A DNA stretch of 64,000 nucleotides, from NCBI GenBank assembly GCA_016906335.1, contig JADEYG010000001.1, positions 1,612,001 through 1,676,000 on the forward strand, in the 5' to 3' direction. The stretch's first letter is position 1; every line of letters starts with the position of its first letter. The stretch is from Novakomyces olei (lineage: Eukaryota > Ascomycota > Novakomycetes > Novakomycetales > Novakomycetaceae). Below are positions 9,366-60,756 of this stretch, piece after piece. Position numbers and translations under genes: made by a program. The notes under the pieces were generated by a model that saw nothing but the letters and a program-made list of their open reading frames with translations, had not been told where the DNA came from and did not search any database.

Positions 9366-10116
9366 GTCTGCCTTGTGTGGGGTACAAGTGCGCCGTTGTA
9401 ATATTTATACCATTATAGTTTACTGTAATTTACTATCATGTACTAAAATTATATATACTATAGTTACTACTTTTCTGCGTAATTTCCGGCAAACCCCGGT
9501 TCCTTGACATCATATGATGCATACGAATAGGGTTATACAAGTGCGCAATGCCGACGATGTGACATAATCCATTCTTATATTTAGATTATCAGCCGACAGG
9601 ATACTCCTGGTATTACATAATGACAGTCTCTCAACACCAAGATTATGGTTGGATCGGAGCACAATACTCTACGAAATTAGAAGTTAATTTACACGTAAAG
9701 CACCTGGTGCTTATTTATTAATTTGCAAACCTAATTGCAAATATTAGTCTATGAACAGTGATTTAATTACTTTGACACAAACTTTAAAGTTCACAGCTAT
9801 ATCGGCAGAGCAGAATGCATTTAAACGCATAGTAGTATCTGCACACACTTTCTTATACACATCTTTAATGCCAGTTTTGTAAAAAGTTTGTAGAGACAGT
9901 CAACTTTGCACGAGCACAAATTTCGGTACTGCAAATGACACATTTTGGCCGTCATATACCTTTTGATTAGGGTTAGTTAGGGTTATTACTTTTCAGTACT
10001 AAATTTATAATCTAATTAATGTCAAACTTACTGATCGCCCAGAAAGGAAATTATGACCTGAACAAGAACAAAGAACTGCAAAATCAAACACAAAGCAAAC
10101 GACAATCAAATTAAAT
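9366..10116. other. Divergent intergenic region
   Basis: A 750-bp spacer between the oxidase and the CAP-protein gene. It contains a telobox-like element (listed separately) about 150 bp before the CAP start. No gene or RNA is seen. Confidence 0.55.
9967..9985 (-). promoter_or_regulatory. Tandem telobox-like element
   Basis: TTAGGGTTAGTTAGGGTTA: two AACCCTAA cores on the minus strand with a 10-bp period, not the 6-bp telomeric period. It lies 132 bp before the CAP-protein ATG. Confidence 0.55.
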
Positions 10117-10620
10117 ATGAAAGTTTTGTATTGTATTCTTTCTCTTACTACAGCTATTGTGGGCCGTGTTTCCGCAACCGACTTTGCCGACTCGATTCTA
10201 AACATACATAATGAATACCGCTCGCGCCATGGTGCAGTAGCCCTAACTTGGAGCGAAGTTCAAGCAGAAATGGCAGCCAAAGCTGCGGATTCCTGTATTT
10301 TTGCTCATTCTGGGTACGTTGGGTATGGCGAGAATTTGGCGGCCAGTACTGGATGGACGGATAACGCAGCCGCCGGCAGCACATACAGTTGGTGGTCCGA
10401 GATAGCAATGTACAACTGGGCAGACCCTGGTTTCAATATGAATACGGGGCATTTTACCCAGTTAGTTTGGAACAGTACTAATTCTGTGGGATGCGCTACT
10501 GCCCAGTGTGACGCACTTGGCCAGTTTGTCGTGTGCGAATATTTTCCGGCTGGAAATATAGTTAATGACGATTATTTCCAGGACAACGTTTTCCCCTGCC
10601 TTCACGACTGTAATGCGTGA
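10117..10620 (+). CDS. Secreted CAP/SCP/PR-1 domain protein
   Basis: A single exon of 167 residues. A signal peptide is evident at residues 1-20 (MKVLYCILSLTTAIVGRVSA). The CAP domain follows with its hallmark blocks: ILNIHNEYRSRHG, the AHSGYVGYGENLA segment, GHFTQLVWNSTNSVGCA and VVCEYFPAGNI. Conserved Cys residues fit the usual disulfides. Fungal CAP proteins (yeast Pry family) are secreted and bind sterols or lipids; this is a bare CAP domain without the Ser/Thr-rich spacer of Pry proteins. It probably acts outside the cell. ATG and stop are unambiguous and no intron is needed. Confidence 0.93.
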   Translation: MKVLYCILSLTTAIVGRVSATDFADSILNIHNEYRSRHGAVALTWSEVQAEMAAKAADSCIFAHSGYVGYGENLAASTGWTDNAAAGSTYSWWSEIAMYNWADPGFNMNTGHFTQLVWNSTNSVGCATAQCDALGQFVVCEYFPAGNIVNDDYFQDNVFPCLHDCNA

Positions 10621-10920
10621 ACAATCCGGATTGGTTGATTTTGGTTTCGCCTGTACTTGCTTGTATTAGTTTGCATTTTGTTTGCTTAGGCCTTTAATTT
10701 CGACGTTTTCGCAGTTTCAATTGAATGCTGGCCACGAATACATCAACACAGCTTCGACATGAAGATTAACGCTGCAAATGAAGAGATAACGTTTTACATC
10801 AGATATCAGCATAATAATTCTCATAGTATTCACTACCATCGAAATGCCATTAGCCGTGATTTTGTGAGCAAACCAGCACATAATCCACAATTAAACCGCA
10901 TGTTAATGCTTATACCATCC

Positions 10921-12236
10921 CTACACTTTTTTAACTGTTGTGCCATCATCATCGAAATCAAAATCGTCCTGCACCCGACGCCAACCAGATTTTGACAGCT
11001 CTTCCAGCAAGGCAGGCCGATCTGGGCCAAAGGAGGACGACTGACGATATTTTGGATGGGAGTAAGAGCCGACTGCGTCCTGTTGGCTGAGCTGCTGTTG
11101 CTTATCAGCCCGTTGCTTTGCGACAATATCCTCCTGCTTTCGAATTTCTTGGTCTAGTCGATCATCGTCCTCGTCATCGCTCTCGACTGTGTGCTGAATC
11201 CGCTTCCCGGTTAAATCGATCGTTATAGCACGTGATTTCTTCTTATTTTCTCGGCGGACTTGCCGTTGCTGCCTCAACAAAAGCAGTGCCTTTTCACTCG
11301 GATCGGACCATTTGCTATCGGTCGCGGTCGAATCAAAATCAGCAGCCTGATCAATAATTTTAGTACGCTGAGCTGCTGTTCTGTCAAAGTTAAGCAATGT
11401 GTTTTTCCTCTCCGTGGCCAAATTGTGCGCTCGTTCAATAGCAGCTTCATCGTATCTGCCACCACCCATTACTCCGGAATACGAGGACTGAGCGCGTCCA
11501 GGAGCTTTTGACCTGGCTGTTTGCGCATTGTAATGACTCTGTTTGACTCGCGCTTTACTACGACGTAAAGATTCAACCAATTCTTTTTTTTGTTCTGGCT
11601 GCAAAAGAGGTTGACCACAAAACGTACACGGGCCCATACCTTCCACAACGCATATAATTTTTCCACAATTTAAACAGTTGGGCGTGACTGTGTTTAGTGG
11701 ATGCCTGGTTGCCCCACAATTGCATACTTTTCGGTGCTGGGGTCCTTTTCCTGAATCCAGGGCAGAAGCCAGCTCGATCTGTTTTAAAACTGCCTCTATG
11801 TCATCAAGCCCTTCAACTTTTACGCCGGTAGATTTGTGCGACAGTTCGGGAAAGGCTGCATTATTCACATTCTTTGTTTTCACAGTACCAAATGGGTTAC
11901 TGTTAGACGCGCCAGGGATTTTAGGCGCAGCTTTTGATGCAGGCCGAGTTCCTGCTGGTGACGGCTGTTGCTTGTTCCGTACTTTTGATTTTTCAGTACC
12001 GAAATTTCGGGCCGTAAACGTCGATACGAAATCAAGACTGTCCGAGCTTTCACCCAATAGTTCCTGCGATCATTAGCTCTGTCTCCCAAACTCAAAGAGT
12101 ATAAATGTCATACAATAAGATATGAGGCTGCCCGTCCAGCGGTGCCCGTGGCCCTAGCTGCATCTAGTATCCCGTTTAGCGTCTCGTCTTCCAGCGGAAG
12201 CAGAGCCCGAAGACTTTCTAACGCGGATGAAGTCAT
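10921..12236 (-). CDS. TRIP4: Activating signal cointegrator 1 / Rqt4 homologue
   Basis: Two exons, 12236-12114 and 12063-10921, encode 421 residues; the 50-nt intron ends GCTAATGATCGCAG. Exon 1 joins in phase to give ASYLIELLGESSDSLDFVST, the conserved N-terminal helices. The C2HC5 zinc finger follows: CNCGATRHPLN, PNCLNCGKIICVVEGMGPC and TFCGQPLL (about residues 150-200). A later block, LLNFDRTAAQRTKIIDQAAD, is also typical. In yeast Rqt4 belongs to the ribosome quality control trigger complex that splits collided ribosomes; the human protein is part of the ASC-1 complex. No ASCH domain is present, as in yeast. The C-terminal half is charged and probably disordered. Confidence 0.92.
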
Positions 12237-12606
12237 GGCGGATTTCAGGTCGGCCGACGATGGAGATCCATGTTCATTATGACAGGCATCTGATAAAAAT
12301 GCAATATATCAAAGACTACTCAGTCCACATTAAATATTATGTCTATTCATATTATTATATCTCTTTATCCAGCATAATGACAATGCTTAGGGTTAACAAA
12401 ATCCGTATACAAACTTGTATGGTAATGATTAGGTTTAGGGTTAGTATTCTCATTGACGATTTACATCTGTATATTATAAAAGCATTAGATTGTGTACTTG
12501 GATTATAGAAAATACGGTGCTAGCATTATCGGGAGAAAATATCGTGATAAACCAGATCGAGAATAATGAATAGCTGCACTGATACATGTCATTCACGGTT
12601 GGATGA
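12237..12606. other. Divergent promoter region with telobox-like cores
   Basis: A 370-bp spacer between TRIP4 and the glutaminyl cyclase gene. It holds TTAGGGTTA at 12387-12395 and TTAGGTTTAGGGTTAG at 12429-12444, and otherwise A/T-rich sequence. Confidence 0.5.
12387..12444 (-). promoter_or_regulatory. Pair of telobox-like elements
   Basis: Two separated TTAGGGTTA-type cores in the shared upstream region of two divergent genes. Confidence 0.45.
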
Positions 12607-13802
12607 ATGGCGGTTCCGCGCGGCAGAGCGGCAATTGCTTTAAGCGTGATTGTGCTATTATGCGCTGCGGCTTTCGCACTATTGCCCACCACTGTCACAG
12701 ATCAGAATTATTTGGAAAAGTATTTGGCAGCAGACAGTGAATTGACAAAAGCACTGCTCGACATCGACCACGGCAGTTTACTTGCGCCTCTTTTAATACC
12801 CCGGCCGGCGGGATCAGAAGCAGCAAATGATACGCTGTATTTTATTCGTGAAAAACTGGAAGATTTGAATGGATCTTGGCATACGGAAATAGACACTTTC
12901 CACGAACAAACACCGGCAGGCGTAGTGCGATTTTCTAATCTTGTAGCCACATTTTCAGGTCGCGAAGGTACGTACCGACAATTTTTTTTTTGATTTTCTA
13001 ATGGCAAAATTATGACAGGTCCTCATTTAATGCTCGCTGCACATTATGATTCGAAACGGGAGCCGGACGGCTTTGTGGGCGCTATTGATTCAGCAGTACC
13101 TTGTGCCATAATGCTGTATGTTGCTCACGCAGTTGCACAGCAGCAAAAGATCGGTATTCAGCTAGCTTTTTTTGATGGAGAGGAGGCATTTGAGGATTGG
13201 ACAGCTACCGATTCGCTCTACGGCTCTCGCCATATGGCGGCAAAATGGGACCAAGAAGTAGTAGAGTCAAGCGGAACGTTACAAAAACGTTCCTCTCGGC
13301 TGGAGAACATTGACGTTATGGTGCTATTAGATTTGCTGGGTACGGCAAATCCCTCAGTGCCCTCTTTCTACGTGGATACACATTCTCTTTACCGCCGTCT
13401 CGCGCTGATTGCGCAAAATTTATACCAATCAGGCGATATTTCTATTGATGCGACGCAATGGTTCCGAGACCGCAACACCCCACATTTGCGAGGTCCTCCC
13501 GCATGGCGCGTGGAGGATGATCATTTGCCCTTTATTGCGCGTGGTGTGTCTGCACTGCACGTAATTCCAGCGCCGCTGCCTTCTGTTTGGCACACGCTTG
13601 ATGTAATAAGGATCGCCATTTTGTTTTTATTCATTTCGCATTTCAATCCTTGTTTTTATCTACATTTTTATCTACATTCATTTTTATCTATATTCTTACT
13701 AATATTTCAAAGGATGACGCAGAGCATTTGCATCAAGCTACAGTCGACGCATGGGCAAAAATTATACTGCAATTCGTGTATGATACAGCAGGAAACTTGT
13801 AA
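12607..13802 (+). CDS. QPCT: Glutaminyl-peptide cyclotransferase (M28 fold), membrane anchored
   Basis: Three exons, 12607-12967, 13019-13602 and 13713-13802, give 344 residues; introns are 51 and 110 nt. An N-terminal hydrophobic helix (AAIALSVIVLLCAAAFALL) after MAVPRGR is a signal anchor or signal peptide. The zinc-dependent glutaminyl cyclase core follows: LAAHYDSKR, GAIDSAVPCAIML, LAFFDGEEAFEDW, DSLYGSRHMA, then VEDDHLPF and PSVWHTLDDDAE across the last splice junction. The expected single-zinc ligands (Asp, Glu, His) are all in place. The enzyme converts N-terminal Gln to pyroglutamate on proteins in the secretory pathway. The last exon restores the conserved WHTLDDD block, which supports the splice model. 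Confidence 0.92.
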
Positions 13803-14130
13803 ATATAGAGCCTTGTTTGCTCCTTTGTATATATTGGAGTATTCGCTTGCGATAGAAAATGCGTAAATCAGCACCTGCCCTTTACCATGGCAAGTTTTAT
13901 TCAATCACAACGGTAGCGCGAAATGTATAAAACATAAATCAACATTGTCATTATGATCACAGTGGCTCAGCTCATATCATATTCCATATTCAGTGAGGCT
14001 ATTTAAATCTGTAGAAGAGCCAAAAGACTGATAGCAGACGCTTCGGCAAACACACGATACATTTGCACCAAAGTAATTTCGACGTCGGAACAAGCAGGCG
14101 TGCAGCGCAAGTTATATTTTATGAAATTTG
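13803..14130. other. Convergent spacer with overlapping open frames
   Basis: From about 13990 to 14190, frames are open on both strands without a clear start. See findings. No gene can be supported. Confidence 0.4.
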
Positions 14131-16170: not shown

Positions 16171-16549
16171 ACTGCCCGTGTCACTGGCTCGTGTACAGTG
16201 TAAAGGCTTTCGTTATTCGGCCTTTAGCCTTTGCACATTGCTTAATTGTATGCACACTATTGGATTGTGCAGTTTAGCAACTTCTAAAGACTTTTTAAAT
16301 GGAGCCTAAACTATCGCTAATACAAACATCCACCAAGATTTAGTTTAAACCCTTTTGCAGTGGCAACCGTCTCGCCAAGTCTATATAGACCTTGTTCTGA
16401 AACCCAGTTTTAGTTGTCCCGTTATGCTCAAGCCTACACAATCTTGCCGGCAGACCCGCAAGGCTCAATCTTCCAACGTGCCCGGTACAGTGTGTAATTT
16501 GCTGTCCCTATGCTAATGCCATTACTGCGCAAACATACCTTGAGCACGC
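16171..16549. other. Convergent spacer
   Basis: 3' flanks of COX10 and JIP5. No feature seen. Confidence 0.5.
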
Positions 16550-17863
16550 TTATTCCATACCCTCAAAGGTCGCAACTGGGCGTTTCTGCGGGTGTACAAG
16601 CTCGCGCTCTTGCCGACGCCGTTTTTTCCGTTCTTTGCGAGTTAGACGCTTGCTTTTTGGCTCATCGGAATCGTCGTCATCTGACCCTTGGTTTTCAGGC
16701 TCCTCGGGCTCCTCAGGCTCCGGACCAGCACTTTTAACTTCTGCCAGTTCATCATTTTGTTCAACTTTTCGAGTTTTAGCGCTGGTGCTCTGAGGGAACC
16801 AGCGCACTTGGGAACCGGACGCAGAGACGATAGAATCACCGTCAAGACACAGTCCCTCAACAGACCCAGGCACAGCGTAGCGGCCAATCAGCTCCTTATA
16901 CCGGTTAGGTTTAAGGTCTAATCGCCAGATAGAGGCGTCACTGAAAGCAACAAAAAGCTCATCGCCACTAGCCAGCATGGCGTCTACTCCCTCATCCACA
17001 GGCGGTAAAATGCGGTCGACAGAGTCGCCCCACTGCCCGTAGCGAAACAGCGAAATAACCCCATCCAGCTGGCCGACTGCTAATACGCTCGGCTTTCCAC
17101 TGTGGCCAAAAATACAGGCGGAATCCATTAAATCAGTTTCCTGGTCTTCACTTTGAACTGCTGGCGTTTCCCGCTTCAATCGGCGAATGTCCCAGTACGA
17201 CAAGGTTCCATCGCCACTTGTAGCCACAAACGATCTCTCGTCCTGTGCGTGCAACGAAGTAATATAGTCAAAATGCAGCAAAGACGTGTGCACGGCTGCC
17301 TCTGGCTGCCTAACGTCCCACACTTTAATCACACCAGAATCATCGCCAGTGACAAATTGCTGTGCGCTTAGAAACTCGGCCGCGTTTATTCCTTCACTAT
17401 CGTGCGTTTGAACGAACTTTTGTCGTACTCGGCCGGTGGCAGAGTCGGCCAGTTTAACTATCCTATCTGATCCCGCACTCAATAGTGCTTTTTGTTAGTG
17501 ATGATTGCAGATGATAATCTTGAAGTATTATAAAAGCAGGCAGTCAAAAGGACAGGCAGTCAAAAGAGCAGGCAGAATAAAACGGGAAAATAAAAAAGTT
17601 AAAAACATTCTAAATATATGGAATTGTCAAGCGGAGCGTTGGATAAGGAGAAAAGGCAGCGCAATATTCTTACTTGAACCATCGATACTAAAGTCCAATG
17701 CGCGACAGGCGAGCTTGTGTCTTCGTGTAGACCATTGCTTTTCTTGTGTCTGACTTTTGTATACTTTCACATGTCCAGTTACGAGCCCAACGGCAACTAG
17801 CGACTGCTCTTCATGCGTTGCAAGAGCGAGCACATCGTCTGGTTCTTCAATTTGCTTATCCAT
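16550..17863 (-). CDS. JIP5: WD40 protein, WDR55/Jip5 family (ribosome biogenesis)
   Basis: Two exons, 17863-17674 and 17487-16550, encode 375 residues; the 186-nt intron ends CTAACAAAAAG. The join gives DGSTLLSAGSDRIVKL, a normal WD repeat turn. About six WD repeats follow, for example GDDSGVIKVWDVRQPE and TSGDGTLSYWDIRRL. The C-terminus is acidic then strongly basic (SKRLTRKERKKRRRQER) and ends KRPVATFEGME, like nucleolar Jip5/WDR55. The family is needed for 60S pre-rRNA processing. The start at 17863 is the first ATG in frame. A tandem telobox lies 60 bp upstream of it, a context known for ribosomal and ribosome-biogenesis genes in several eukaryotes. Confidence 0.85.
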
Positions 17864-18283
17864 ACCAGATAGCAATTGAGCTTTTTATGATGATAAAATA
17901 ATAATTATTTATTTATGAAAAATAACCCTAACTAACCCTGTTCAGATAGCGAATAGCAAATTACTCCCCCATCGTTTAGATTTCTAAATATTTATTTAAA
18001 TCCTCTTTTTACCTTTGCGTGACTGATGGGTATGTCAAAGGCTGCACTGGACCTTTTAGTATTGCAAAGAAAGTCATATATTATACAAAATGCAGCATGT
18101 TACTATAGGATAAAACTATAAACCCAAATATTCAACACATTTGCTCAACACCGCAAGCCGAGTACTATCAAAAAGCCATTATGGCTTGAATATTGTTTGC
18201 CGCTTGCACCTAGCGTTATGCAAAACAAAAATAGAAATGCAATAGAGGGAGAGCTTTTGGTATTCTAAACCAACCAATTTACA
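17864..18283. other. Intergenic region upstream of JIP5
   Basis: 420 bp between two minus-strand genes; contains the JIP5-proximal telobox. No other feature. Confidence 0.5.
17923..17939 (+). promoter_or_regulatory. Tandem telobox-like element
   Basis: TAACCCTAACTAACCCT, two AACCCT cores 10 bp apart, 60 bp before the JIP5 ATG. Confidence 0.6.
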
Positions 18284-19659: not shown

Positions 19660-19695
<36 letters not shown>

Positions 19696-20829: not shown

Positions 20830-21121
20830 ATGGATACAGAGGAACCACAGTCCTCTGTAACCGTTAGAAGACCCCATCACAACGGGCGTGCAAAAGCAGC
20901 CATTTAAACGACGGGATGCTACAAGCGACGACACAAACCTTGACAAAGGTGCATTCACTCGCTCTAACGCGCAGACAATTGAAAATAGCTGGACGCTGCG
21001 TCCAACAATTGACAAATTGTACTGCGTAGAAAAAGGTACCAAAAAGTATAAAGGCGACTCTTTACGAGGCCAGACACGGTTGTTTCTGGTAAAAGGCAAG
21101 AAACAAATACGACTTGTCTAA
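20830..21121 (+). CDS. Small unrecognised basic protein (83 residues)
   Basis: Proposed exons are 20830-20856 and 20897-21121, joined over a 40-nt intron with donor GTAACC and acceptor GCAAAAG. The join is phase 0 and gives MDTEEPQSSQPFKRRDATSD. The second exon continues with AFTRSNAQTIENSWTLRPTI and ends with KKYKGDSLRGQTRLFLVKGK and a short basic tail. The open second exon, even composition and small-gene style fit the window, but I know no family and the intron lacks a clear branch site. Treat as a hypothetical gene. Confidence 0.4.
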
Positions 21122-21176
21122 CCCCGGCCGCAGATGGTGTGCAGTACGGCAATAGCCACTCTATATATAGTCGCCC

Positions 21177-21192
21177 TTAACCTAACCCTTAG
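21177..21192 (+). promoter_or_regulatory. Telobox-like element
   Basis: TTAACCTAACCCTTAG, a degenerate pair of cores. Confidence 0.35.
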
Positions 21193-21330: not shown

Positions 21331-21346
21331 TTAGGGTTAGGGTTAG
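21331..21346 (-). promoter_or_regulatory. Telomere-like repeat TTAGGGTTAGGGTTAG
   Basis: The only copy in the window with a true 6-bp telomeric period. It lies 285 bp before the REV7 ATG. Confidence 0.5.
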
Positions 21347-26696: not shown

Positions 26697-27406
26697 TAAT
26701 TATAGGCATGTGGCAGATCGTTTCATATATCCAATGTAAATATAAGTTAATTAAGAGTTTCTTTTACCAAAATTGCTACTGCAATACCTTATACTGTGTA
26801 ATGCTTGCTTTATATACAACTCGCTTTATATACAACTCGCTTTATATACAACTCGCTTTATATACAACTCGCTTTATATACTACTCGCTTTATATACAAC
26901 TCGCTTTATATACAACTCGCTTTATATACTACTCGCTTTATACTACTTGCTATTGTACAGCAAATCAGAGCCTATATACTTAACGGTACTTAACCCTGAT
27001 ATTGCTTGGAATACAGGCTATGTATGCTCGATATATGTACGTTAGTGGAAAAGTATCAGCGCGCCGCGTACCAATTGAGCGCTGTGGTAAAAACATACGC
27101 TATATGATTGTGGGCGCGGTAACGCGGTGGCACTATAGGGCAAACATAATATATAGAAATTAATAGATTCCAGCAATAAACCGCTGTACTGTGAGGCGTA
27201 TAAAAATAGAATCTTGGCGGACACGTTTAACGTCGACGTTACTGCAAACCTGTGTAAGTAACAAAAGAGCATACCAGTCACGACGCAAACACGGGAGACG
27301 AACCCCACGTTCACTTCTCCCAGGCAGTGCAGAACTCTAAAGCAGCAACGTGCTTTAGCTTGCGACCTCACAGTATATAACGCGTAAGGCGCAAATTACG
27401 GAGCCG
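26697..27406. other. Intergenic region with minisatellite
   Basis: About 700 bp. It holds the 16-bp minisatellite and a single AACCCT core near 26988; no gene. Confidence 0.5.
26805..26948. repeat. 16-bp minisatellite, nine units
   Basis: The unit TCGCTTTATATACAAC is repeated head to tail from 26805; some copies have TACTAC in the second half. The period is not a multiple of three, so all frames read as Tyr/Leu-rich repeats and no protein is implied. Confidence 0.9.
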
Positions 27407-33306: not shown

Positions 33307-33575
33307 TTCCATATCTTTTGCCGGCTGCTTTGGACTTTCAAACAGAGTTTTCATCTGCCTCGAGTAAGACTGCCAAGCCTGCTGCAAATTGATCTATGCA
33401 TATTTCAGACAGGATGGGCTTGATTTTTTAAGACACAAAGATTAGAGCAAAGCATACGGAAAACTATTTGTTTTCTGCCGAAAATATAACCCTAGCAATT
33501 GAGCATTTTACACAGTACACTACGTCGTGCATTCGCTAGTACATTGGTTGAATATACATTGCAATAATCTTATCG

Positions 33576-34052: not shown

Positions 34053-34593
34053 TTTAGTGATTGGAGTTGTGCTGTGGACTTTGAAAGAGATCAGTTTATT
34101 ATGTAGACTTTAACGTACACAATTCTGCATTATTGAGCAATAAATATCTAATACTATAAAGTTTATTGATTTTAAGTATATTGGATGTGGGTTTGTGCTG
34201 CGTAGGGTTACGGGTTGTTTAGGGTTATGGTTTGCTTAGGGTTATTGTTTGTTTGTTGAAAACCCTGATGTTAGCAACAAGCGGCGCCGTAAACGTTGCG
34301 CAACTCGCATAACAACGTGAACTAGAATAAAGTGTCCCCTTACTGAATGTATTCTTGTACTAAGCTGAACTAAGCTGGCCCAAATTTTATCTACGACTTA
34401 TTAGCAAAGTGTCCTTTAATCACGTGTGTTGAAGAACGGCAATTGGGGACGTTCTTTTAAGCCATTTAATATAATAATTGTGAATCATAACTAAATATAC
34501 TTTTAAAATATTGAGCACGCACTTAAGGCAAATTAAAAAATTGACATGAAATCGCAACCAGCGTTCAATTATTCGGAAGTTTGTCCCAAATTT
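34053..34593. other. Intergenic region with dispersed telobox-like cores
   Basis: 540 bp upstream of NUO9.5 and downstream of COQ6. Three TAGGGTTA cores lie at 34203-34244. Confidence 0.5.
34203..34244 (-). promoter_or_regulatory. Three TAGGGTTA cores
   Basis: Cores at about 34203, 34219 and 34236, 16-17 bp apart, 150 bp upstream of NUO9.5. Confidence 0.45.
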
Positions 34594-36182
34594 CTAAGCA
34601 GCCCCAGCGGCCCGCATCATTAAATTCTTTACAAAAGGCATCGCATTTAAGGCTTGCGAGGCGATTGTGCGTAGTTCTCTTACAGCGGGGTTCTGAATAC
34701 CATAAAATTTGTGGAATTTGTCACATGCTCCCATCATACGCTGATTCGCAAAATACTGTCTGGCCGGATATTGCTCAAGCAAAATAAGCGAACCAATATC
34801 GGCACCCTGCAGACAGCCTTGCTGAATAATCTCTGATAAACAAGCAACGTCAGCCAGTCCCAGGTTGAGTCCTTGGCCGCCCAATGGATGAATTACATGA
34901 GCGGCATCGCCAACAAGGGCCACACGGTCCTTGACATAAGAGTCAGCATGATACATTCGTAAGGGAAAAGGTGCCCTTGTGCCTGGCACAACGTCTGCCA
35001 CCCAGGGCAGATTGTCAGACTTGCTCTGGGCGTAAACTCCCAAACGCCACTCTACTTCATCCCGTACTTGTTCCGGTGGTAGTCGGAAAATGTACTCCAA
35101 CTCGGAAGGGCTTAGCCTTAACGCAGCATTCACCATAAGGCAGAAACTTTTATCATCTAATGCCTTTAGTAGTGTAATAATTTCGGGACTCGTATGGAAA
35201 GCTAAGCTGGCATTGGTGCCGGGAAAGGGTAGCACTGCTACTGGTCCAGCCCCGAGAAATCGTTGATAAGCGCATGCATTTTCCCCGTTCTTCTCTGCAA
35301 GTTTTAGTGTGGCCACCATACACTGCCGATTGTAAGGCCAGCCAGAACTTTGTATGCCTGCAAACTTTCGCACCGGCGAATTGACACCGTCTGCGCCCAC
35401 CACTAGTCTGGAGGCAATCTGCAACGTTGCTCCACTGTTTGCTTGGGCCGTGCTATTTTCGTTTGCCTTTTCATCTTTGTGTTTGTCTGAGTTTTCTTTG
35501 ATTTTATTTTTTTCGTTAATGTTTGGCTGTTCCGCCAGCCTTGGATTGGGAGTAGCAGAGCTTTGGTCTTGCTTACTTTGCACACTAACCACGGGCCAGG
35601 TACCGTCACCGTTACTCTCAATGGAAGAGACTAACGAGTTATCCAGCACAACCGTATCAGTCTCCCCAATAACCTGGAGCAGTGCGCTCATAAGGTTTGA
35701 GTTCTCTACCATATACCCATTAATCGCGTCGTTAGCGAAATGTATAGGTTCAGGCGTATTCCAGTCCCATACACGCATGTCCTCATACGGACCAACTCGG
35801 TCCCATTCCAGACGCGACCACGCGCCTGTTTTTGTCAAGAACCGAGCCGAAGTCGGCGTAATCGAGCTCGTGCGATTCGCGTAAGGTCCATTATTACGAG
35901 CGGCTTCGCGCCAATCCGATATGCGTGAAAGCGATTGGCCTTCGACGAGAACGACACCCAAGTTTCGGGAAACGGGACTGGTTTCTGTCGTTAATTATAT
36001 GTATTCTGCCTTTTCGATGATGTGCGGTTCTAGTTTAGTCTATTCTCCTTGTTTTTTATCCAAAACTTACTCAATGCCGCAGCCAGAGCAAGACCCGCAA
36101 TTCCACCACCCACTATAGTCACATCTGCATTTTTGGCGACTTTTGTAGAGTAATGCCGGCACGCTTTCCGTAGTTTGAGCAT
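34594..36182 (-). CDS. COQ6: Ubiquinone biosynthesis monooxygenase Coq6
   Basis: Two exons, 36182-36071 and 35984-34594, encode 500 residues; the 86-nt intron ends TTAACGACAG. The N-terminus MLKLRKACRHYSTKV is a mitochondrial presequence. The FAD-binding motif VTIVGGGIAGLALAAAL starts at residue 23. The DG motif RLVVGADGVNSPVR and the GDAAHVIHPLGGQGLNLGLA block complete the PHBH/UbiH fold. Coq6 hydroxylates C5 of the ubiquinone ring precursor on the matrix face of the inner membrane. A Lys/Glu/Asn-rich insert (KIKENSDKHKDEKANEN) before the DG motif is unusual. The first exon supplies the whole nucleotide-binding loop, so the splice is secure. Confidence 0.93.
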
Positions 36183-36518
36183 TGAAGCCTATTGCGATTT
36201 GTTAATTATCCTAGTTGCATCATAAGACCTCGCCTTAATTCTCTTGATCGTTAAAAGATATTTAGCCAAAAAAAGATAACTAACCCTGACTAACCCTAGC
36301 TAACCCTATTTGCGAACACTGGCTTTACAGTATCTGAATATCGTTATGTGCCGATTGATTACATAAAGAAAATGTGAAATAAGCATCATTGGAGCAGCGT
36401 ATTCAGACATGTGTAATGTGAATAAACGGAATACATATAATCACTCTAAAACACTCGTATGTTGGCGATACGCTAGTGAAACGCGTTACCCTACGGCGTA
36501 GTAAACTGCCCTGCAAAT
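36183..36518. promoter_or_regulatory. Divergent promoter region COQ6-SRV2
   Basis: 336 bp between two divergent genes; contains the triple telobox-like element at 36281-36308. Confidence 0.55.
36281..36308 (+). promoter_or_regulatory. Triple telobox-like element, 10-bp period
   Basis: TAACCCTGAC, TAACCCTAGC and TAACCCTATT directly abutting. It is the clearest case of the 10-bp spacing, 99 bp before the COQ6 ATG and 210 bp before SRV2. Confidence 0.6.
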
Positions 36519-38128
36519 ATGCAAATTGATCAGATATCGGAGCAATTAGAGCTCGTCTTCCAACGGTACGTGTCCATTCTAGTTGGTTAGCATTCAGTAT
36601 CCCTCTAACTGTGTATAGACTCGAGTCCGCTACTTCGCGACTGGAGAAAATTACGGGAGCCGGTGGGACTGCGGGTCAGACTGGACCGTCCACGGGACCC
36701 GATTCAACTGGTCAGCGCGGCACTTCCGTTCAAAATTCTCAGTCTCCAGCAGTCGAAAATTTTAAAGAATTTATTGAAGCTTATGTGAACAAATTTGACC
36801 AGCTCAGCGGTAAAGTTGGTGGCGATGTGGCAACTCAGGCCCATGCAGTAGCGGGCCTGTTTGCACTGCAGCTTGATCTCCTACGTGCCGCGGCCGTTAG
36901 CAAAAGACCAAAAATAGCCGAGTTTCAAGAAATTTTGAAGCCGTTCTCTGCTAGTTTAATGCAGATCTCAGATCTGCGAGATCGTAGTCGTGGATCCCCA
37001 TTTTTCAACCATTTGTCTGTTGTTGCTGATGGTGCTCAAGCCTTTGGATGGATCGCTGTGGACAGAACTCCGGCCAAGTTTGTCAGTGAGAATGCAGAGG
37101 CAGCCCAGTTTTATGGTAATCGTGTGCTCAAGGAATACAAGGAAAAGCCTGATTCCGCGAGCCACAGCGAATGGGTTCGCTCATTTTACCAATTGCTGTC
37201 CAAGTTACAGCAGTACATTAAGGAAAATTGTGCTACTGGTATCGAATGGAACCAAAGTGGCGGCGATGCATATGAAGAGTTTCAGAAACTTTCCAAGGAC
37301 TCTGGAAGCAACTCGTCTTCTAATGGATCTACTACAAAAGCAGCAGATGGACCGGCAGCAGATGGAACAGCTGCTCCTCCGCCTCCGCCGCCGCCGCCGC
37401 CACCGGCGCCGGCTCCCCCTCCAGCTCCAATTCAATCGGATGCTTCGGCTCCAGCAGACATGAATGCCGTTTTTGCTGAGATTAATAAGGGCGACGCGAT
37501 TACTTCGGGTCTGCGTAAAGTGGACAAGTCACAAATGACGCATAAAAACCCTTCATTGCGGGCGCACAATAAAATACCGACATCTTCGGCCTCTGAGACC
37601 CGGCCGGCTTCAACTTCTGGCCCAGTTACTGGATCTAAACCTGCAGCGAAACCGCCTCGTCGTGAATTGGATGGCACCAAATGGTTCATTGAGAATATAG
37701 ACAATGATCCAAATGTGATTATAGAAGGGTTAGAGATGAACCAGTCTGTGTTCATATACAACTGCAATGATACAACCGTCCAGATCAAGGGCAAGTGCAA
37801 CGCCGTATCTGCAGGAAACAGCAAAAAACTCAATGTTGTGGTGGACGATCTGGTTTCGTCGTTTGATGCAACAAAATTGACGTCTTTTGGATTACAAATT
37901 TTGGGCAATTGTCCTACAATTGTCGTAGATCAGTGCCATGGGGGCGCGGTTTACCTGTCCGAGGGCAGTTTGACGGCAGAGATTAGCACTACAATGTCCT
38001 CAAACATAAATATAAATATTCCTGGCGCCGGAGAAGATGGTGACTATGCTGAACGTGCCGTTCCGGACATGCTCAAGCATACGGTTAAAGACGGACAGCT
38101 CGTGACAGAAATCGTACGCCACGAATAA
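36519..38128 (+). CDS. SRV2: Adenylyl cyclase-associated protein (CAP/Srv2)
   Basis: Two exons, 36519-36565 and 36619-38128, give 518 residues; the 53-nt intron ends TCTAACTGTGTATAG. The N-terminal helical segment QRLESATSRLEKITG is the cyclase-binding, oligomerising part. A helical folded domain spans about residues 50-220. A polyproline run (eleven prolines, then APAPPPAP) and a WH2-like linker follow, then the beta-helix CARP domain (KWFIENIDNDPNVIIEG, IYNCNDTTVQIKGKCNAV, GNCPTIVVDQCHGGAVYL). The protein recycles cofilin-bound actin and, in fungi, links adenylyl cyclase to Ras. The full domain set is present. Confidence 0.95.
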
Positions 38129-48386: not shown

Positions 48387-48734
48387 GTTGCCATTAGGCC
48401 CGGATTTCAATTGTGTATTTGATTTGCATACGTATTCAGGTTGTCGTGAACACCTCTTGCCTATCAACAATGACGATATTTACTTTATTAAACAGCATTC
48501 ACCTCTTGCAAGGAAACTAACCCTAAGAAACCCTATACAGATTGTAACCGTTGGGAATTTTATGTATAGGTCCCCCACGTCTTACTTCATCCATCTACCA
48601 AAACATTAGGCTTGTATCGTTTTAATATAAGCTTATCAAGGAAGCGTTTTGGGCAGGTATTATTATAACTGGATATTATTTATGGAGAATATCCAAATGT
48701 CGTGCTAGTGTTTTGCCATCGCAAATCTTTGGAC
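48387..48734. promoter_or_regulatory. Divergent promoter region ATRIP-DAP1
   Basis: 348-bp spacer with one telobox-like element at 48516-48538. Confidence 0.5.
48516..48538 (+). promoter_or_regulatory. Telobox-like element
   Basis: ACTAACCCTAAG followed by AAACCCTATAC; two AACCCTA cores 12 bp apart, 130 bp before the ATRIP start. Confidence 0.5.
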
Positions 48735-50435: not shown

Positions 50436-50466
<31 letters not shown>

Positions 50467-53247: not shown

Positions 53248-53682
53248 TTTCAGGGAAAATACATACTACATGCACAAAAAGCTCCGCCCTTTATGTTTAT
53301 GATTACTACGAAGCGTATATTTTTGTCTCGCAGCTGCCATTTATACTGAGTTGCTTGCATTGCTGTGTATCTGTTAGAATCATTGCCTGTCGTACCAATT
53401 ATCATGGCTACTATTTGTATAAGGACGCTTCGTCATATTTCAGGTTTATTTCGTCTACATTATGGAAATGACCGCCCATATATCCTATAAAAATCCAACA
53501 AAAATTCCCAAACACGCTCGATCTATTTCGTTGTCATTTTACCTTGTCCCACATAAAACAGTTTATTGAGATTCACTGTCATAAATTTATATAAAATACC
53601 ATTATAAATAGTCTACGCGTACCACTTCGAATCCAGTAATCTATAAACATGTTTTACTAGATAACACAACACAAAAGCGTCA
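53248..53682. other. Spacer ALG3-NCA2
   Basis: 435 bp between two plus-strand genes; no feature seen. Confidence 0.45.
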
Positions 53683-55525: not shown

Positions 55526-56048
55526 AAAGATGGAGTATTACGGTTTGTGTATAGCGCATGAGTATTAGACGTCTTTCTGGAATATAGTAATGATTGAACT
55601 AATCTCGTATGGCAAAACAAAGTGTCCTCATTAACTATCGTAATTTCGAGATTAGTAAACCCAAACATTAATATTGGGCACAACAATTTATTGAGCTTCC
55701 AGAGACAAACAGGTCCTTAGTGTGGGAACAAAACCCTAACTAACCCTATACTTAATTTTGCACTAACACCGATAACCGCAATAGCCCTACAGGCGCCCAA
55801 CAAGCGGAACGGAACTACTAAAAAGGGTGTTGAGCCTATCTAGACTAGAACGTTGCATAGTATGCGTATTTGAATCACATATAGATGCTAATCATGCTTT
55901 ACGTACAACCATAATTTTGCAACCGTAGGTCCATTACTGTTTGTGTCGTCCTTATCCGGCACTTTTAACTTAATAATAACACCATAAATATATTATCAAG
56001 AAAGGAGAAACGGCGTGTTGAGCGTCAGATACCGGATACGCGAGCAGA
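55526..56048. other. Spacer NCA2-SEC4
   Basis: 523 bp with a telobox-like element at 55731-55750; no gene. Confidence 0.5.
55731..55750 (+). promoter_or_regulatory. Tandem telobox-like element
   Basis: AAACCCTAACTAACCCTATA, two cores with 10-bp spacing, about 300 bp before the SEC4 ATG. Confidence 0.55.
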
Positions 56049-57052
56049 ATGGCCTCAAAGTCTTAGTAAGCTTCTATTCTCATTTCTTTTACGCGTCACC
56101 TGAAATACTTGGCTGAATACGCGTCTGCTTTAACGGCTGCTATCATCCGTCGCGGACCGATCCTTCTAAATTCTACCGTGACTCTGTATAATTATTCAGC
56201 AATCCTAATTTGAATAGCGACTATTTGATCAAACTTCTATTGATTGGCGATTCGGGTGTGGGCAAGTCGTGCTTACTGTTGCGTTTCAGCGAGGACAGTT
56301 TTACTCCGAGCTTTATCACGACCATAGGGATCGATTTCAAAATTCGAACAATCGATCTAGAGGGCAAACGCATCAAATTGCAGATATGGGACACTGCAGG
56401 CCGTAAGTGCCGTGTAATTAAGTCTAGTTTGTCTAATATTTCCAGAGGAGCGATTTCGCACGATTACTACGGGTATGAAGAGAGTAATTGTTGGTTGCTT
56501 ATACTTTAGCGTATTACCGAGGCGCCATGGGCATTTTGCTCGTTTACGATGTTACAGACGAGAAGTCCTTCAACAGTATGCTCGACCAAAGTTCAACGTA
56601 TATTCAGTGCTAACTAAACAGACATTCGTACATGGTATTCTAATGTTGAACAGCATGCTTCGGAAAACGTGCACAAGATTTTGATTGGAAACAAATGTGA
56701 CGCCGAAGAGAAAAGGGTATACTCATACACGTCTGGCAGCTTTTAGTATTATTTCTATTTGGACGGAACTAATTCCTAAAGCAAGTAAGCACGGAACAGG
56801 GTGAGGCCTTGGCTCGTGAATTTGGTATTCAGTTTGTTGAGGCCAGTGCTAAGGCAAACATCAATGTGGAAGATGCGTTTTTCACGCTTGCGCGGTATGT
56901 TTCTCAGGCTGTTTTGCAGTTCTAAATATGGCAGTGATATCAAGCGGGATATGATTGATACTTCCGGCAATGACGCTGGCGCCTCCGGTCAGAGCGGCAT
57001 GAATTTATCCGGATCAAATGGCGCTACTTCGAGCAGCAGCAAATGCTGTTAG
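56049..57052 (+). CDS. SEC4: Rab GTPase, Sec4/Ypt2/Rab8 type
   Basis: Seven exons: 56049-56065, 56218-56402, 56446-56472 (27 nt), 56510-56575, 56622-56716, 56782-56894 and 56935-57052, 206 residues. The spliced start [20 protein letters not shown] is almost that of fission yeast Ypt2. All GTPase motifs are intact: P-loop GDSGVGKS, switch [11 protein letters not shown], switch [26 protein letters not shown] and EASAK. The C-terminal SSSKCC is a double-cysteine geranylgeranylation site. Sec4 directs secretory vesicles to the exocyst at growth sites. Intron positions lie within the P-loop preceding strand, switch II and the NKxD region; introns are 37-152 nt. No defects seen. Confidence 0.95.
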
Positions 57053-57663
57053 CTTTTTTTTCTCTATAACATATCCATATTTACAGCTCAACGGTGCCAT
57101 GTTTGAGAAGGGGAAATAGGCCGTTCGTTCGTTGGTTATTTATATACATTGATTTTACAGCTAAATGATTTGAGTGTAATCACTAGCAATTGTAGTTTTA
57201 AAAATGAATCCTTAACTTTTCAAACCGACATAAGAAGCTGGTTTTGTTAGGTAGTGAAAATATTCAGTCAGCCGTTGCAAAGTATCTTTTGCGTTTTGGC
57301 AGATATGTCTCCGATGTTCATCGTAGTCGAATACTGTATGTGTATATCCTGTGTAATATTACGTACGAATATAATTATATCTAGTGAGTTTACTTGTTTT
57401 TACTCGCGTATCGAGCGGGCGTAATTCTCTTTTAAGGCAAAACTTTTATTCGTTTTGGAGATTCAAGAACCGAGTCCGAAGGGCTACAGGTCAATTCAAG
57501 ATAAATTGCGTATTCATCATCGTGTGCTATTTAAAAGCTCATCGTATTAAGGTCGTGTTTTATCCGTATCTGACTCACAACAAGCCTCTCGTAATGAATG
57601 GTACGAGCGTGGCATGAGCGTGTCGTATTTTCGTGATTTTGAATCTACCCAGGGTTTTCTGAT

Positions 57664-57676
57664 GAAGATTCCAGAA
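57664..57676 (+). promoter_or_regulatory. Heat-shock element, three perfect alternating units
   Basis: GAAGATTCCAGAA fits nGAAnnTTCnnGAAn exactly. It lies 187 bp before the HSP110 ATG, where heat-shock factor control is expected. Confidence 0.7.
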
Positions 57677-57763
57677 AAGGACAGGATTTTCTACGATGTA
57701 ATGTAAAAATAATAGCGTCCATAAATTTTCTTTCTCGCCGTAAAATTGTCAAACCCTCTGCTA

Positions 57764-57764
57764 T

Positions 57765-57798
<34 letters not shown>

Positions 57799-57799
57799 A
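57764..57799. repeat. (TA)n microsatellite
   Basis: An almost pure TA run interrupted by one C, about 65 bp before the HSP110 ATG; it may contribute a TATA-like element. Confidence 0.75.
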
Positions 57800-57862
57800 A
57801 AGACAGCCGAGCTTGATAGAGCACAAATTTAGGTGCCAATTCGAGCCAGAAAGTAGAGCAGA

Positions 57863-60070
57863 ATGGCGTCTTCCGTGGTGGTAAGTCTATTCTTTCAGTC
57901 AATGTTCTTTGTTTAACTTTTTCAGGGATTTGATATCGGAAACAGCAAGACTGTTATCTCCGTAGCACGGAACCGTGCGATTGATGTTATAACAAACGAA
58001 GTCTCGAACCGTGCGACACCCACTCTGGTTGGATTCGGTCCGAAAGCGCGTTATCTCGGAGAGGGCGCGAAAACGCAAGAGACCTCAAACTTTAAAAACA
58101 CAGTAGGCTCGTTGAAACGGCTTGTCGGCCGTTCCTTCTCCGATCCGGAAGTAAAATACGAGCAGCAGTTCGTTTCTGCTGAGCTGGTGGACGTAAAGGG
58201 CCATGTTGGCGCAAAGGTCAATTACCAGGGCAAACAGGAGGTCTTTACTGCTACTCAGCTGCTGGCTATGTTTTTCACGCAGGCAAAACTTACTACTGAG
58301 GTCGAATTGCGGCAAAATGTGACTGACGTGGTCATCTCTTGTCCCGGCTGGATGACGGACCAGCAGCGCCGGGCAATGTTGGATGCTTCCGAGATTGCAG
58401 GTCTAAATACTTTACGTCTCATGAACGATACTTCCGCTGCAGCTTTGGGTTATGGCATCACAAAGACAGATCTACCGGAGGACAAGCCCCGTAATGTCGT
58501 CTTTTGCGATATTGGCCACTCCAATTATTCTGTCGCTGTTGTGTCCTTCCTACGTGGTCAATTGCACGTACGTGCGACTGCTTATGATCGTCATTTTGGA
58601 GGCCGTAATATCGATTTGGCGTTGGTCAACCACTTTGCTGAAGAGTTCAAGGCCAAATACAAGATTGACGTCAATGCTAACCAGAAAGCCTTGTTCCGTT
58701 TGTACACAGCGGTCGAAAAATTGAAAAAGGTCCTTTCTGCTAACGCTGCTGCTCCATTGAACGTTGAGTCGCTTATGAATGACATTGACGTTAGCAGCTT
58801 TTTGAAGCGGGCCGAGCTGGAAGAGCTGATCAGCCCATTGTTGGCGCGTGTTGAAGATCCTCTGAAGCGCGCCTTGGAAACTTCTGGACTCACCAAAAAT
58901 GATATTCACAGCATTGAGCTTATTGGCGGTACTACGCGCGTTCCATCAATCAAGGATCGTATTGCTGCGTTTTTTGATAAGCAGCTTTCCTTTACACTGA
59001 ACCAGGATGAGGCTGTTTCGCGTGGGTGTGCTTTCGCTTGTGCTATCCTTTCTCCTGTTTTCAAGGTCCGTGAATTCGCAGTCCACGATATCTCTGCTTA
59101 TCCGATTGTTTTCCAGTGGGAGGCCGAGCCTGGAATCGACGAAGAAACGAGCCTGGAGGTATTCTCTGCACGTAACCCGATCCCGAGCACCAAAGTTCTT
59201 TCTTTCTATCGCAAGAAGCAATTTACGCTCACCAGTTCTTATCCAGATCCCTCCGCCTTACCGGGCGGTATCAATCCTTGGATTGGTGATTATACGATTA
59301 AGAACGTAAAGCCCAACAGTGCCGGTGAGCATGCTTTGGTCAAAGTTAAAGCCCGCTTGAATCTTCACGGAGTTCTTAGTGTAGATCAGGCATATGTGGT
59401 TGAGGAAGAAGAAGTAGAAGAGCCGATTCCAGCAGAAGGTGAGGATGCCAATGGTGAAAAGAGCAAAGACGAAATGCCTGTTGATGGCGCCGATGGAACA
59501 GCAAATCCTCCACCCAAGACACGCAAGGTGAAGAAGCTGGTCAATAAGGGATCTCTCCCCATTGTTGCTGGTACAGTATCGCTTGACGACTCAATCAAGG
59601 AGGCTTACAGAGAGCGTGAATTGGAAATGACAGTGGCTGATAAATTGGTAAAGGAGACTGAGGATCGCAAGAACGCATTGGAGGAATACATCTATGACAC
59701 TCGCAGCAAGCTGGACGATATTTATGCTGGCTTTGCTAGTGATGCGGAGAAGGAGAAACTGCACAAGCTTTTGAACGAGACCGAGGATTGGTTGTATGAT
59801 GAGGGCGAGGATGCCACGAAGGCTGTTTACGTTTCACGTATGGACTCGTTACTCAGCATCGGCGGCCCTATTCGTCAACGATACCTTGACGCAGAGGAAG
59901 CCAAACGTCAGGAAGTGATCAAGGCACGAGAAGCCGAGGCAGAGAAGCTGCGTAAAGAAAAGGCACAGAAGGAAGAAGCATCCAAGGGCGAAAAGGGAAC
60001 TGGTGGTGCGGCCCCACCACCACCGCCACCGGAGCGAGTAGAGGATGAGGATGCTGAAATGAAGGGATAA
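57863..60070 (+). CDS. SSE1: Hsp110-family chaperone / nucleotide exchange factor (Sse1, Hsp88)
   Basis: Two exons, 57863-57880 (18 nt) and 57926-60070, encode 720 residues. Splicing completes SVVGFDIGNSKTVISVARNR, the first phosphate-binding loop of the Hsp70 ATPase fold. Further blocks are RLMNDTSAAALGYGITKTDL, VVFCDIGHSNYSVAVV, YDRHFGGRNIDLALV and ELIGGTTRVPSIKDRI. The substrate-binding half has the long acidic linker and helical lid typical of Hsp110. The C-terminus holds polyproline and an acidic tail (ERVEDEDAEMKG). Hsp110 acts as exchange factor for cytosolic Hsp70 and as holdase. A heat-shock element and a TA run precede the gene. The 45-nt intron ends TTTAACTTTTTCAG. Confidence 0.96.
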
Positions 60071-60756
60071 ACGCTAAATTTGCAGCATTCATGGCTTTAT
60101 AGAGAATGCATCCTTATGTGTTATAATTGATTATTGATGCGGCATATTGAGTCAAGTTTTATGATTCGTAGTTATAATTGAAGTTTGAGAATTTGCATGC
60201 CATTTGCTTAAAGTCGTAAGAGAGAGCGTTCAGGGCGTTCTTAGTGACTGAAGGTTACATTGAATCTGAAAACCGTCGCACGCGCCTAGAAGCCCTGGTC
60301 CTTTGCTCCTTTGTATGCATACGTTGGGCAAGGTCGAACTATTAAAGTTAGGGTTAGTCAGAGTCTGCAGTCTTCCATATTTAAGGGTTAGTTAGGGTTA
60401 GTTTAACGCAAGTCAGGGTTTACGTGCACTGTTATGTGGTACAAATATAAGCGTACTACTTAATCTCTGCATTAGCTCATTACCAATCCCCGCACGCGAC
60501 TTGCGGAGAAGTGCAGTAAGGCGAGGCCGCTGTTCCACTCCGTACTCGGTCAAATAATTCTGTTTTTCTCACTGAAAATCTATACCAATCGACACGCTGG
60601 CTTTTGAAGGCTCTTTCATTGCTTATTGCTAGGCGTTAAAAGTTTGTGGCGCCCTCTATACATTGTGCCTGTCACGGTCTTTTGACGAAAGGCTGAGAAT
60701 AACTTTTAAGCACCTGATTGTTTGGACGGCAATACTCTTTGAAAACGTACGTCTGA
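60071..60756. other. Spacer HSP110-quinone reductase
   Basis: 686 bp with two telobox-like elements; no gene seen. Confidence 0.5.
60347..60402 (-). promoter_or_regulatory. Two telobox-like elements
   Basis: GTTAGGGTTAG at 60347-60357 and AGGGTTAGTTAGGGTTAGT at 60384-60402, the latter with 10-bp core spacing, about 360 bp before the next ATG. Confidence 0.5.

Follow-up and report, generated by a model that had tools for sequence, protein, structure and literature searches.

Telobox elements in intergenic DNA of the ascomycete Novakomyces olei and their match to the species' 10-bp telomere repeat

Intergenic DNA of Novakomyces olei carries numerous telobox elements composed of one or more AACCCT cores, and their tandem form with 10-bp spacing has the sequence of the species' own telomere repeat. 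We consider that these elements are probably promoter teloboxes, whose cores would be bound by a telobox-Myb protein acting as a general regulatory factor. The interpretation offered in a preliminary description of the DNA, which compared the elements with teloboxes bound by Tbf1/Teb1-type Myb proteins, was partly supported overall.

Telobox elements and their positions relative to genes

The window, that is, the whole 64,000-nucleotide stretch of DNA analysed, contained seven AACCCT-N4-AACCCT pairs, compared with a mean of 0.005 and a maximum of 1 in 200 first-order Markov simulations, and 18 copies of TAACCCTA compared with 1.2 in such simulations. The elements and the genes next to them are as follows.

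9529..9534, minus strand: single core TAGGGTTA, 162 bp ahead of the start codon at 9365
9969..9984, minus strand: 10-bp telobox pair whose spacer is exactly telomeric, flanked by the genes for an FMN-dependent dehydrogenase (start 9365) and a CAP-family secreted protein (start codon 10117, 131 bp away)
12389..12442, minus strand: two single cores (12389 and 12437), 151 and 163 bp from the starts of the two genes that share this divergent promoter, one with a weak TRIP4-domain match and one for an M28 peptidase
16434..17863, minus strand: WDR55-like gene model (WDR55 is its best match in Pfam but, at 124.6 bits, falls short of the cut-off of 200)
17924..17939, plus strand: 10-bp telobox pair, 59 bp ahead of the WDR55/JIP5-like gene model
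21017..21132, minus strand: U5 spliceosomal RNA gene (Rfam RF00020, 68.7 bits)
21179..21192, plus strand: partial box AACCTAACCCTTAG upstream of U5, with 46 bp between its near edge and the 5' end of the snRNA
21333..21344, minus strand: 6-bp telobox pair AGGGTTAGGGTT, also upstream of the U5 snRNA gene, at a distance of 200 bp
34204..34243, minus strand: three single cores at 17-bp intervals; these and the element at 33487 lie in a convergent 3' flank
34594..36182, minus strand: FAD monooxygenase gene model (PF01494; called COQ6 in the preliminary description)
36282..36307, plus strand: three cores with 10-bp spacing, forming two pairs, in a divergent promoter, 99 bp from the COQ6-like monooxygenase start and 210 bp from the cyclase-associated protein start
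36519..38128, plus strand: adenylate cyclase-associated protein gene model
48519..48534, plus strand: 10-bp pair with the non-telomeric spacer AAGA in a divergent promoter, 131 bp from a gene that matches LCD1 weakly and 200 bp from a short model
55732..55747, plus strand: 10-bp telobox pair, 301 bp ahead of the Rab/SEC4 start codon (56049; gene named by reading its sequence)
60350..60399, minus strand: single core (60350) and 10-bp pair (60384-60399), 398 bp ahead of the start of a zinc-dehydrogenase gene model at 60799

The existence of the elements as first described was partly confirmed overall. All of the coordinates listed earlier held with an offset of 1-8 bp, and none of the window elements overlapped any predicted exon, in agreement with their description as lying between genes; the apparent intronic position of the element at 55732 was an artefact of the gene finder, which had merged Rab/SEC4 with NCA2. 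The element at 36282-36307 comprised three units as reported, but it was not literally AACCCTAACTAACCCT because its spacers were GACT and AGCT. The copies listed as looser proved heterogeneous: the one at 21331, the only copy for which that spacing had been noted, is the 6-bp pair; those at 12387, 12429, and 60347 are single cores, 21177 is a partial box, 34203 comprises three cores, and 48516 is a 10-bp pair. The pair at 17924 had been placed 60 bp before JIP5, and its distance of 59 bp from the WDR55-like gene, which we take to be JIP5, agrees with this.

The abundance of the motif extended well beyond the window. In 260 kb, TAACCCTA was the most over-represented intergenic 8-mer (44 copies; 1.9 expected), so that the AACCCT/TTAGGG core exceeds chance by a wide margin between genes, and AACCCTNNNTAACCCT occurred 353 times in the whole genome, telomere ends included, versus once for the reversed pattern, a count far above expectation. 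A second candidate promoter motif, CCATACATT, was discarded, most of its 27 copies being a 15-bp subtelomeric minisatellite.

The elements were also placed non-randomly with respect to genes, as predicted by gene models from our own HMM that were built without RNA support and in which some genes are fused. Fifteen of 26 intergenic telobox loci fell within the interval 50-300 bp upstream of a start codon, against an expectation of 6.7 (p=5e-4), consistent with the upstream location first noted, and three control hexamers were flat with respect to start-codon distance. The promoter bias was weak in a second set of 18 C1 elements chosen by motif, three of them copies of an LTR-like repeat described below (6 of 14 intergenic elements; 3.6 expected; p=0.12). 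Predicted exons, which cover 58% of the 260 kb, contained none of the 13 10-bp pairs of that region and none of the 18 in the second set, and overlapped five of 53 TAACCCTA sites and one of nine 6-bp pairs. Coding sequence is avoided, and the initial interpretation accordingly withstands two of the outcomes named beforehand as refuting it, a genome-wide count no higher than expected and equal frequency in coding sequence. With respect to 3' flanks, whose avoidance is not clear-cut (convergent loci numbered 3 of the 26 intergenic ones; 4.6 expected), it survives only weakly.

A box was present within 600 bp upstream of 25 gene models, of which 24 were covered by domain scans, 20 of them through one exon each. 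The genes were mixed, as the preliminary description had noted in naming COQ6 and SEC4, which rules out a target set confined to ribosome-related genes. No common function was evident, a point against the promoter reading. Other Rfam genes were likewise rejected as usual neighbours: only U5 and three tRNAs reached gathering scores in the 260 kb, and of these U5 was the one examined for boxes.

Telomere repeat, spacing, and chromosomal spread

The 10-bp spacing had been presented as a feature distinguishing the boxes from telomeres, which were assumed to have a 6-bp period. The contig ends rule out this distinction. The telomere of the species consists of a 10-bp unit, TTAGTTAGGG, with TTAGTCAGGG variants, which is found at both ends of C1 and keeps TT-AGGG within 10 bp in accordance with the Yarrowia-type formula TTNNNNAGGG. 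All of the 98 three-unit matches lay at contig ends, the end being known for 22 of them only as the highest coordinate seen. Because the telomere unit itself is 10 bp long, a 10-bp pair represents 1.6 telomere units. Nor is 10 bp the rule among the boxes: across the genome the 6-bp tandem is the commoner form, and on C1 6-bp pairs outnumbered internal 10-bp pairs by 66 to 48, the latter drawn from 69 10-bp pairs in all.

The identity of the 10-bp pairs with the telomere repeat raises the alternative that they are functionless interstitial telomeric sequences, short pieces of the repeat that telomerase or end repair deposited at internal breaks and that persisted only outside exons. Of the 82 internal 10-bp pairs sampled, 67 had the telomeric spacer (AACT or GACT), as read from the rows by eye with a search pattern that itself fixes the last T; this is more than a two-core site needs and counts against the promoter reading. 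So does the distribution of differences in the six sites with three mismatches (1.65 expected by chance), where 13 mismatches fell in cores and five in spacers. Sites with one or two mismatches showed the opposite pattern, as only three of 14 mismatches affected the cores (12 positions) and the other 11 the spacer (four positions), which speaks against functionless remnants. Moreover, internal sites had mostly two cores and sometimes three, no internal array of at least three units with the telomeric spacer NACT was known among the 98 three-unit matches, and longer internal runs had other spacers, as in the four or five cores separated by AACA at C2:970264-970305. Together with the preference for the 50-300 bp ahead of start codons, these observations make an origin as mere telomeric debris unlikely, albeit the strongest of the alternatives.

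The chromosomal distribution differed between the two spacing classes. After removal of the LTR-like copies, 10-bp pairs were clustered (variance/mean 1.62 in 100-kb bins; none of 2000 simulations as high) and enriched within 150 kb of an end (24 of 70 loci; 11.9 expected), neither of which is required of a plain promoter element and both of which suit interstitial telomeric sequences. Clusters lie at C1:1.14-1.38 Mb and C2:0.71-0.94 Mb. The 6-bp pairs sampled were evenly spread, with eight of 51 near ends and 8.7 expected, a pattern that speaks against telomeric debris. Clustering on the scale of domains, seen in the sampled 10-bp pairs and not in the 6-bp pairs, together with the enrichment at ends, could also indicate that the 10-bp pairs are docking sites of a second, perhaps Taz1-like, telobox protein and mark late-replicating or silenced domains instead of promoters. 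Taz1 acts on internal telomeric repeats that adjoin late origins, and C9 encodes a protein that is the second of the telobox-Myb type. We nevertheless give this proposal little credence, as the pairs lie close to the start codons of ordinary genes, and the C9 protein matched no Pfam family and yielded a structure model too poor to use.

Some 10-bp pairs are carried by a dispersed repeat of approximately 440 bp with TG...CA ends, in which the pair lies approximately 15 bp inside the start. Flanking 5-bp duplications (ATCAT and CTTCT) were present at two of the three copies read and absent at copy L030; such ends and target duplications are those of LTR retrotransposons. Of the three, two resemble solo LTRs. 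The repeat gave at least 20 matches, grouped into 15 places, and might have spread the elements as a mobile family whose start carries telomere-type repeats. As a main source it is largely refuted and in our judgement highly improbable, since it holds only 11 of the 82 sampled internal pairs, leaving 71 outside it, and none of its listed matches (at least 20) falls in the window.

Candidate binding proteins and proposed action

Consistent with the involvement of a Tbf1-type Myb factor suggested at the outset, reading frame C3:1164465-1166633 codes for a TBF1/Trf1-type protein that combines a TRFH domain (PF08558; 1.7e-60) with a C-terminal telobox Myb. It matched S. pombe Trf1 over TRFH (8.4e-41) and Myb (1.4e-28) and the Myb of TBF1 (4e-20); the general Pfam Myb model alone reached 18.5 bits, short of the 24.4 set as its cut-off. 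The second telobox-Myb protein, whose Myb lies at C9:828968 (36% over the Myb), matched no family in a Pfam search, and its structure model had a mean pLDDT of 38.5. A TBF1 protein search returned two matches and led nowhere. Judged by their sequences, other Myb places look like a SANT co-repressor (C2:1217k), Cdc5 (C12:1230k), Reb1 (C9:780k), and an R2R3 protein (C3:1077k). No two-Myb Teb1/Tay1 homologue was recognised among the Myb places read, which exclude C12:1035k, C7:1859k, C12:591k, C3:1498k, and C3:1041k.

On the promoter-telobox reading, one or more AACCCT cores would be occupied by a telobox-Myb protein, for which the TBF1/Trf1-type protein is the first candidate and the C9 protein the other. 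Once bound, this protein would most likely displace nucleosomes or insulate, serving as a general regulatory factor for many unrelated genes. The analysis establishes the motif with its enrichment and positions, the telomere sequence, and the presence of both proteins, whereas binding, the assignment of each protein to a form of the box, nucleosome displacement, and descent of the 10-bp form from the telomere are inferred. The 6-bp pair corresponds to the TTAGGG-type box of other yeasts; since the 10-bp pair comprises 1.6 units of TTAGTTAGGG, the same protein or proteins could read both chromosome ends and promoters. A more far-reaching scheme, which we regard as improbable, would treat the 6-bp and 10-bp boxes as separate telobox codes that differ in reader and range. 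The 6-bp box, evenly spread, would be the older, and the 10-bp box, clustered in domains and near ends and partly LTR-borne, would be a younger copy of the telomere. Promoters would then compete with chromosome ends for the telomere protein, and telomere length could therefore tune a large gene set.

Comparison with known systems

Promoter boxes are known in yeasts; the novelty here lies in their agreement with the telomere and in their uneven distribution. The S. pombe HisBox (AGGGTTAGGGTT) is described as bound by Teb1 (PMC4839565); as in that system, tandem TTAGGG-type boxes lie 5' of protein genes and the 6-bp class has the same 12 letters, whereas N. olei has an additional 10-bp class equal to its own telomere, and its targets are mixed. 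S. cerevisiae Tbf1 is described as a general regulatory factor of snoRNA and other promoters and of subtelomeric STAR elements, for which, as here, nucleosome exclusion and insulation have been proposed (PMC6410037). The TRFH plus telobox-Myb architecture, the promoter sites, and the TTAGGG sites near ends are common to both species, but the S. cerevisiae boxes no longer match the telomere repeat of that yeast and those of N. olei do.

The Yarrowia clade is reported to have a 10-bp telomere repeat, TTNNNNAGGG, and the protein Tay1 (PMC6746865). Repeat length and formula are shared, and the Y. lipolytica repeat TTAGTCAGGG is a variant here; in N. olei, however, the main unit is TTAGTTAGGG, and a one-gene tree (37 chosen rows of 120 listed plus the query, whose branch is long) places the species with Schizosaccharomyces. 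The 10-bp unit itself is already in print: the repeat given for chromosome ends of Morchella sextelata, AACCCTAACT, is identical to that of N. olei, and the account of that repeat makes no mention alongside it of internal or promoter copies (PMC13208314). Nearly the same 10-bp telomere is thus present in what look like three ascomycete branches, represented by N. olei, Yarrowia (PMC6746865), and Morchella (PMC13208314), a distribution that would mean either repeated origin or deep ancestry. When the telomere repeat of a lineage changes, promoters using the same binding protein should lag or follow. Both outcomes seem to coexist in N. olei, where the 6-bp box was evenly spread in the sample and the telomere-matched 10-bp box was clustered, and this coexistence allows a test of whether telomere repeat, binding protein, and promoters evolve together.

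Telobox pairs and the telomere repeat

The window (C1:1612001-1676000) belongs to a genome of 14.34 Mb in 15 contigs (C1, C2 and so on). The telobox-like places listed in the preliminary description were present, with offsets of 1–8 bp. Seven pairs of AACCCT cores at 10-bp spacing were found in the window, compared with a mean of 0.005 and a maximum of 1 in 200 first-order simulations, and AACCCTNNNTAACCCT occurred 353 times in the whole genome (184 + 169, telomere ends included) versus once for the reversed pattern. On C1, the sole contig with a complete listing for this pattern, 48 of 69 matches were internal and 21 terminal. Pairs spaced 6 to 9 bp gave 559 matches genome-wide versus 11 in the control; from the 76 on C1, removal of nine at other spacings and one terminal match left 66 at spacing 6. 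Spacings of 11–20 bp gave 437 matches, including telomere arrays, versus 52 in the control, and by our reading of the internal C1 matches none of these spacings singly approached 48. On the internal C1 counts, 6 and 10 bp were thus dominant, with 6 bp exceeding 10 bp. At C2:970264-970305, four or five cores follow one another at an internal site, separated by AACA, which is not a telomeric spacer; the window also contained a tandem repeat of 8.5 near-identical 16-bp units (GCTTTATATACAACTC; 26807-26942).

Both ends of C1 consisted of (AACCCTAACT)n plus a few 6-bp units, with AACCCTGACT variants at the left end. A three-unit pattern with the spacer NACT had 98 matches in the whole genome, all listed. 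Of these, 76 mapped to contig ends whose position is known, and the other 22 to the highest coordinates observed on C4, C7, C8, C10, and C13, which were taken as ends. These matches and the terminal repeats indicated that the telomere is TTAGTTAGGG/TTAGTCAGGG. The formula TTNNNNAGGG, given for the Yarrowia clade in a passage of PMC6746865, also fits this telomere, and the unit AACCCTAACT, reported for Morchella sextelata in an excerpt of PMC13208314, is common to that species and the C1 ends. Because the telomere unit is itself 10 bp, the contrast previously drawn between the 10-bp spacing and a 6-bp telomere period fails; the 10-bp element corresponds to 1.6 telomere units. Just inside the right telomere of C1, a subtelomeric minisatellite of ~15-bp units with CCATACATT was observed (C1:1760909-1761478). 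Telobox matches near the highest coordinates of C8 (29065-29690; ~29.7 kb) had offsets nearly equal to those of the C7 right-end matches (C7:2620437-2621051); C8 may therefore duplicate that end or represent a haplotype of it.

Chromosomal spread of the pairs and variation in cores and spacers

We compared the spread of the two forms using internal pairs with flanking C or G. The 10-bp sample comprised 82 internal pairs from seven large contigs (100 of 108 matches listed; C4 and C7 lengths assumed to equal the highest coordinate). It was over-dispersed in 100-kb bins (variance/mean 1.79, a value reached in 0 of 2000 simulations), and 30 of the 82 were within 150 kb of ends versus 13.9 expected. 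The 6-bp sample, drawn likewise (60 matches, 51 used), was even (variance/mean 1.03; 847 of 2000 as high), with 8 of 51 near ends versus 8.7 expected. On C1, counts of the two forms per 100 kb were uncorrelated (Spearman −0.12, p = 0.62), and a single form recurred in runs somewhat longer than expected by chance (p = 0.03). Away from contig ends, 10-bp pairs formed clusters at C1:1.14-1.38 Mb and C2:0.71-0.94 Mb; 6-bp counts did not track them on C1, which this comparison covers, the C2 6-bp matches listed reaching 576 kb.

Three of 18 C1 elements chosen by motif alone fell within an LTR-like repeat of ~440 bp with TG...CA ends, ~15 bp in from its start:

L017:1485-1924 (C1:343 kb), LTR-like repeat copy
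L018:1486-1930 (C1:350 kb), LTR-like repeat copy
L030:1486-1928 (C1:1071 kb), LTR-like repeat copy

The copies were 84–86% identical, and two of the three had 5-bp flanking duplications. At least 20 matches were found genome-wide, which we grouped into 15 places on C1, C2, C4, and C9. The telomere-type boxes occupy the expected position of an LTR promoter. After 11 LTR-derived pairs were excluded and near neighbours merged, the 70 remaining 10-bp loci stayed clustered, with a variance/mean of 1.62 (0 of 2000 as high), and enriched at ends, with 24 near ends versus 11.9 expected.

Core and spacer mismatches were compared in 260 kb chosen as adjoining the window (C1:1502001-1761951). At sites with one or two mismatches, some overlapping within three-core arrays, the 12 core positions held 3 of the 14 mismatches and the 4 spacer positions 11. 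Sites with three mismatches numbered 6 versus 1.65 expected by chance (13 core and 5 spacer mismatches). Genome-wide, allowing one mismatch anywhere gave 439 matches versus 353 for intact cores with a T-ending spacer. Overall, these counts lean towards selection on the cores. However, by our count, 67 of the 82 sampled internal 10-bp pairs had a telomeric spacer (60 AACT, 7 GACT, 15 other; last base T fixed by the search pattern), which weighs against that reading.

Position relative to genes

A simple gene-finding HMM trained on the 260 kb yielded 100 models with 160 introns (58% coding). In this region, TAACCCTA was the top over-represented intergenic 8-mer among those seen at least 15 times (44 versus 1.9, z = 30.6), and AACCCTA, with 28 promoter copies and 20 elsewhere, ranked third among promoter-biased 7-mers and first among those not composed of AT only. 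No 10-bp pair (0 of 13) touched a predicted exon, compared with 1 of the 9 6-bp pairs and 5 of the 53 TAACCCTA copies. The 35 telobox loci comprised 26 between two models, 3 exonic, 2 at an edge, and 4 intronic, although predicted introns conceal errors: the pair at window position 55732, which precedes the start codon of SEC4 by 301 bp, was called intronic because the HMM fused NCA2 and SEC4. A start codon was 50–300 bp away at 15 of the 26 intergenic loci versus 6.7 expected (p = 5e-4), convergent flanks occurred at 3 of 26 versus 4.6 expected, and three control hexamers showed no bias in the same test. In the second set, the 18 C1 elements, none was exonic, 4 were in predicted introns, and 14 were intergenic, 6 of these 14 being 50–300 bp from a start versus 3.6 expected (p = 0.12); taken alone, the 10-bp form therefore has a moderate promoter bias.

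Boxes were found within 600 bp upstream of 25 models of mixed functions, several of whose matches (WDR55, LCD1, TRIP4, and dynactin 5) fell below Pfam cut-offs.

Genes with upstream boxes
WDR55/JIP5-like, FAD monooxygenase (COQ6-like), cyclase-associated protein, FMN dehydrogenase
P-type ATPase, Vps27-like, heme lyase, dehydrogenases, others
Window 21017-21132, minus strand, U5 spliceosomal RNA gene; telobox-like boxes 46 and 200 bp upstream

Candidate binding proteins and related systems

The genome contained one TRF-family match, a 722-aa reading frame (TRFH, 1.7e-60) matching both domains of S. pombe Trf1 and also yeast TBF1. A second protein (C9:828968) carried a telobox Myb at its C terminus, in which the letters VDLKDKARN occur; it matched TBF1 weakly (1.4e-4) and no Pfam family. 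No two-Myb Teb1/Tay1 homologue was recognised among the Myb places read, with five further Myb places outside that reading. In a one-gene tree of prolyl-tRNA synthetase (37 chosen matches plus the query, 38 rows), the long-branched query grouped with Schizosaccharomyces (98/86); the top identity was 69% among the 120 matches listed.

The elements agreed with the telobox promoter element class in motif, enrichment, and position, the last qualified by the second set (p = 0.12). They are unusual in that the 10-bp form matches the species' own telomere repeat and that its spread is unlike that of the 6-bp form. In passages of the respective sources, TTAGGG boxes precede genes in S. pombe and Teb1 requires two of them (PMC4839565), and in S. 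cerevisiae, Tbf1 acts at promoters and in subtelomeres as a general regulatory factor (PMC6410037). By analogy with these closest counterparts, the N. olei elements would work most like Teb1 boxes and Tbf1 sites.
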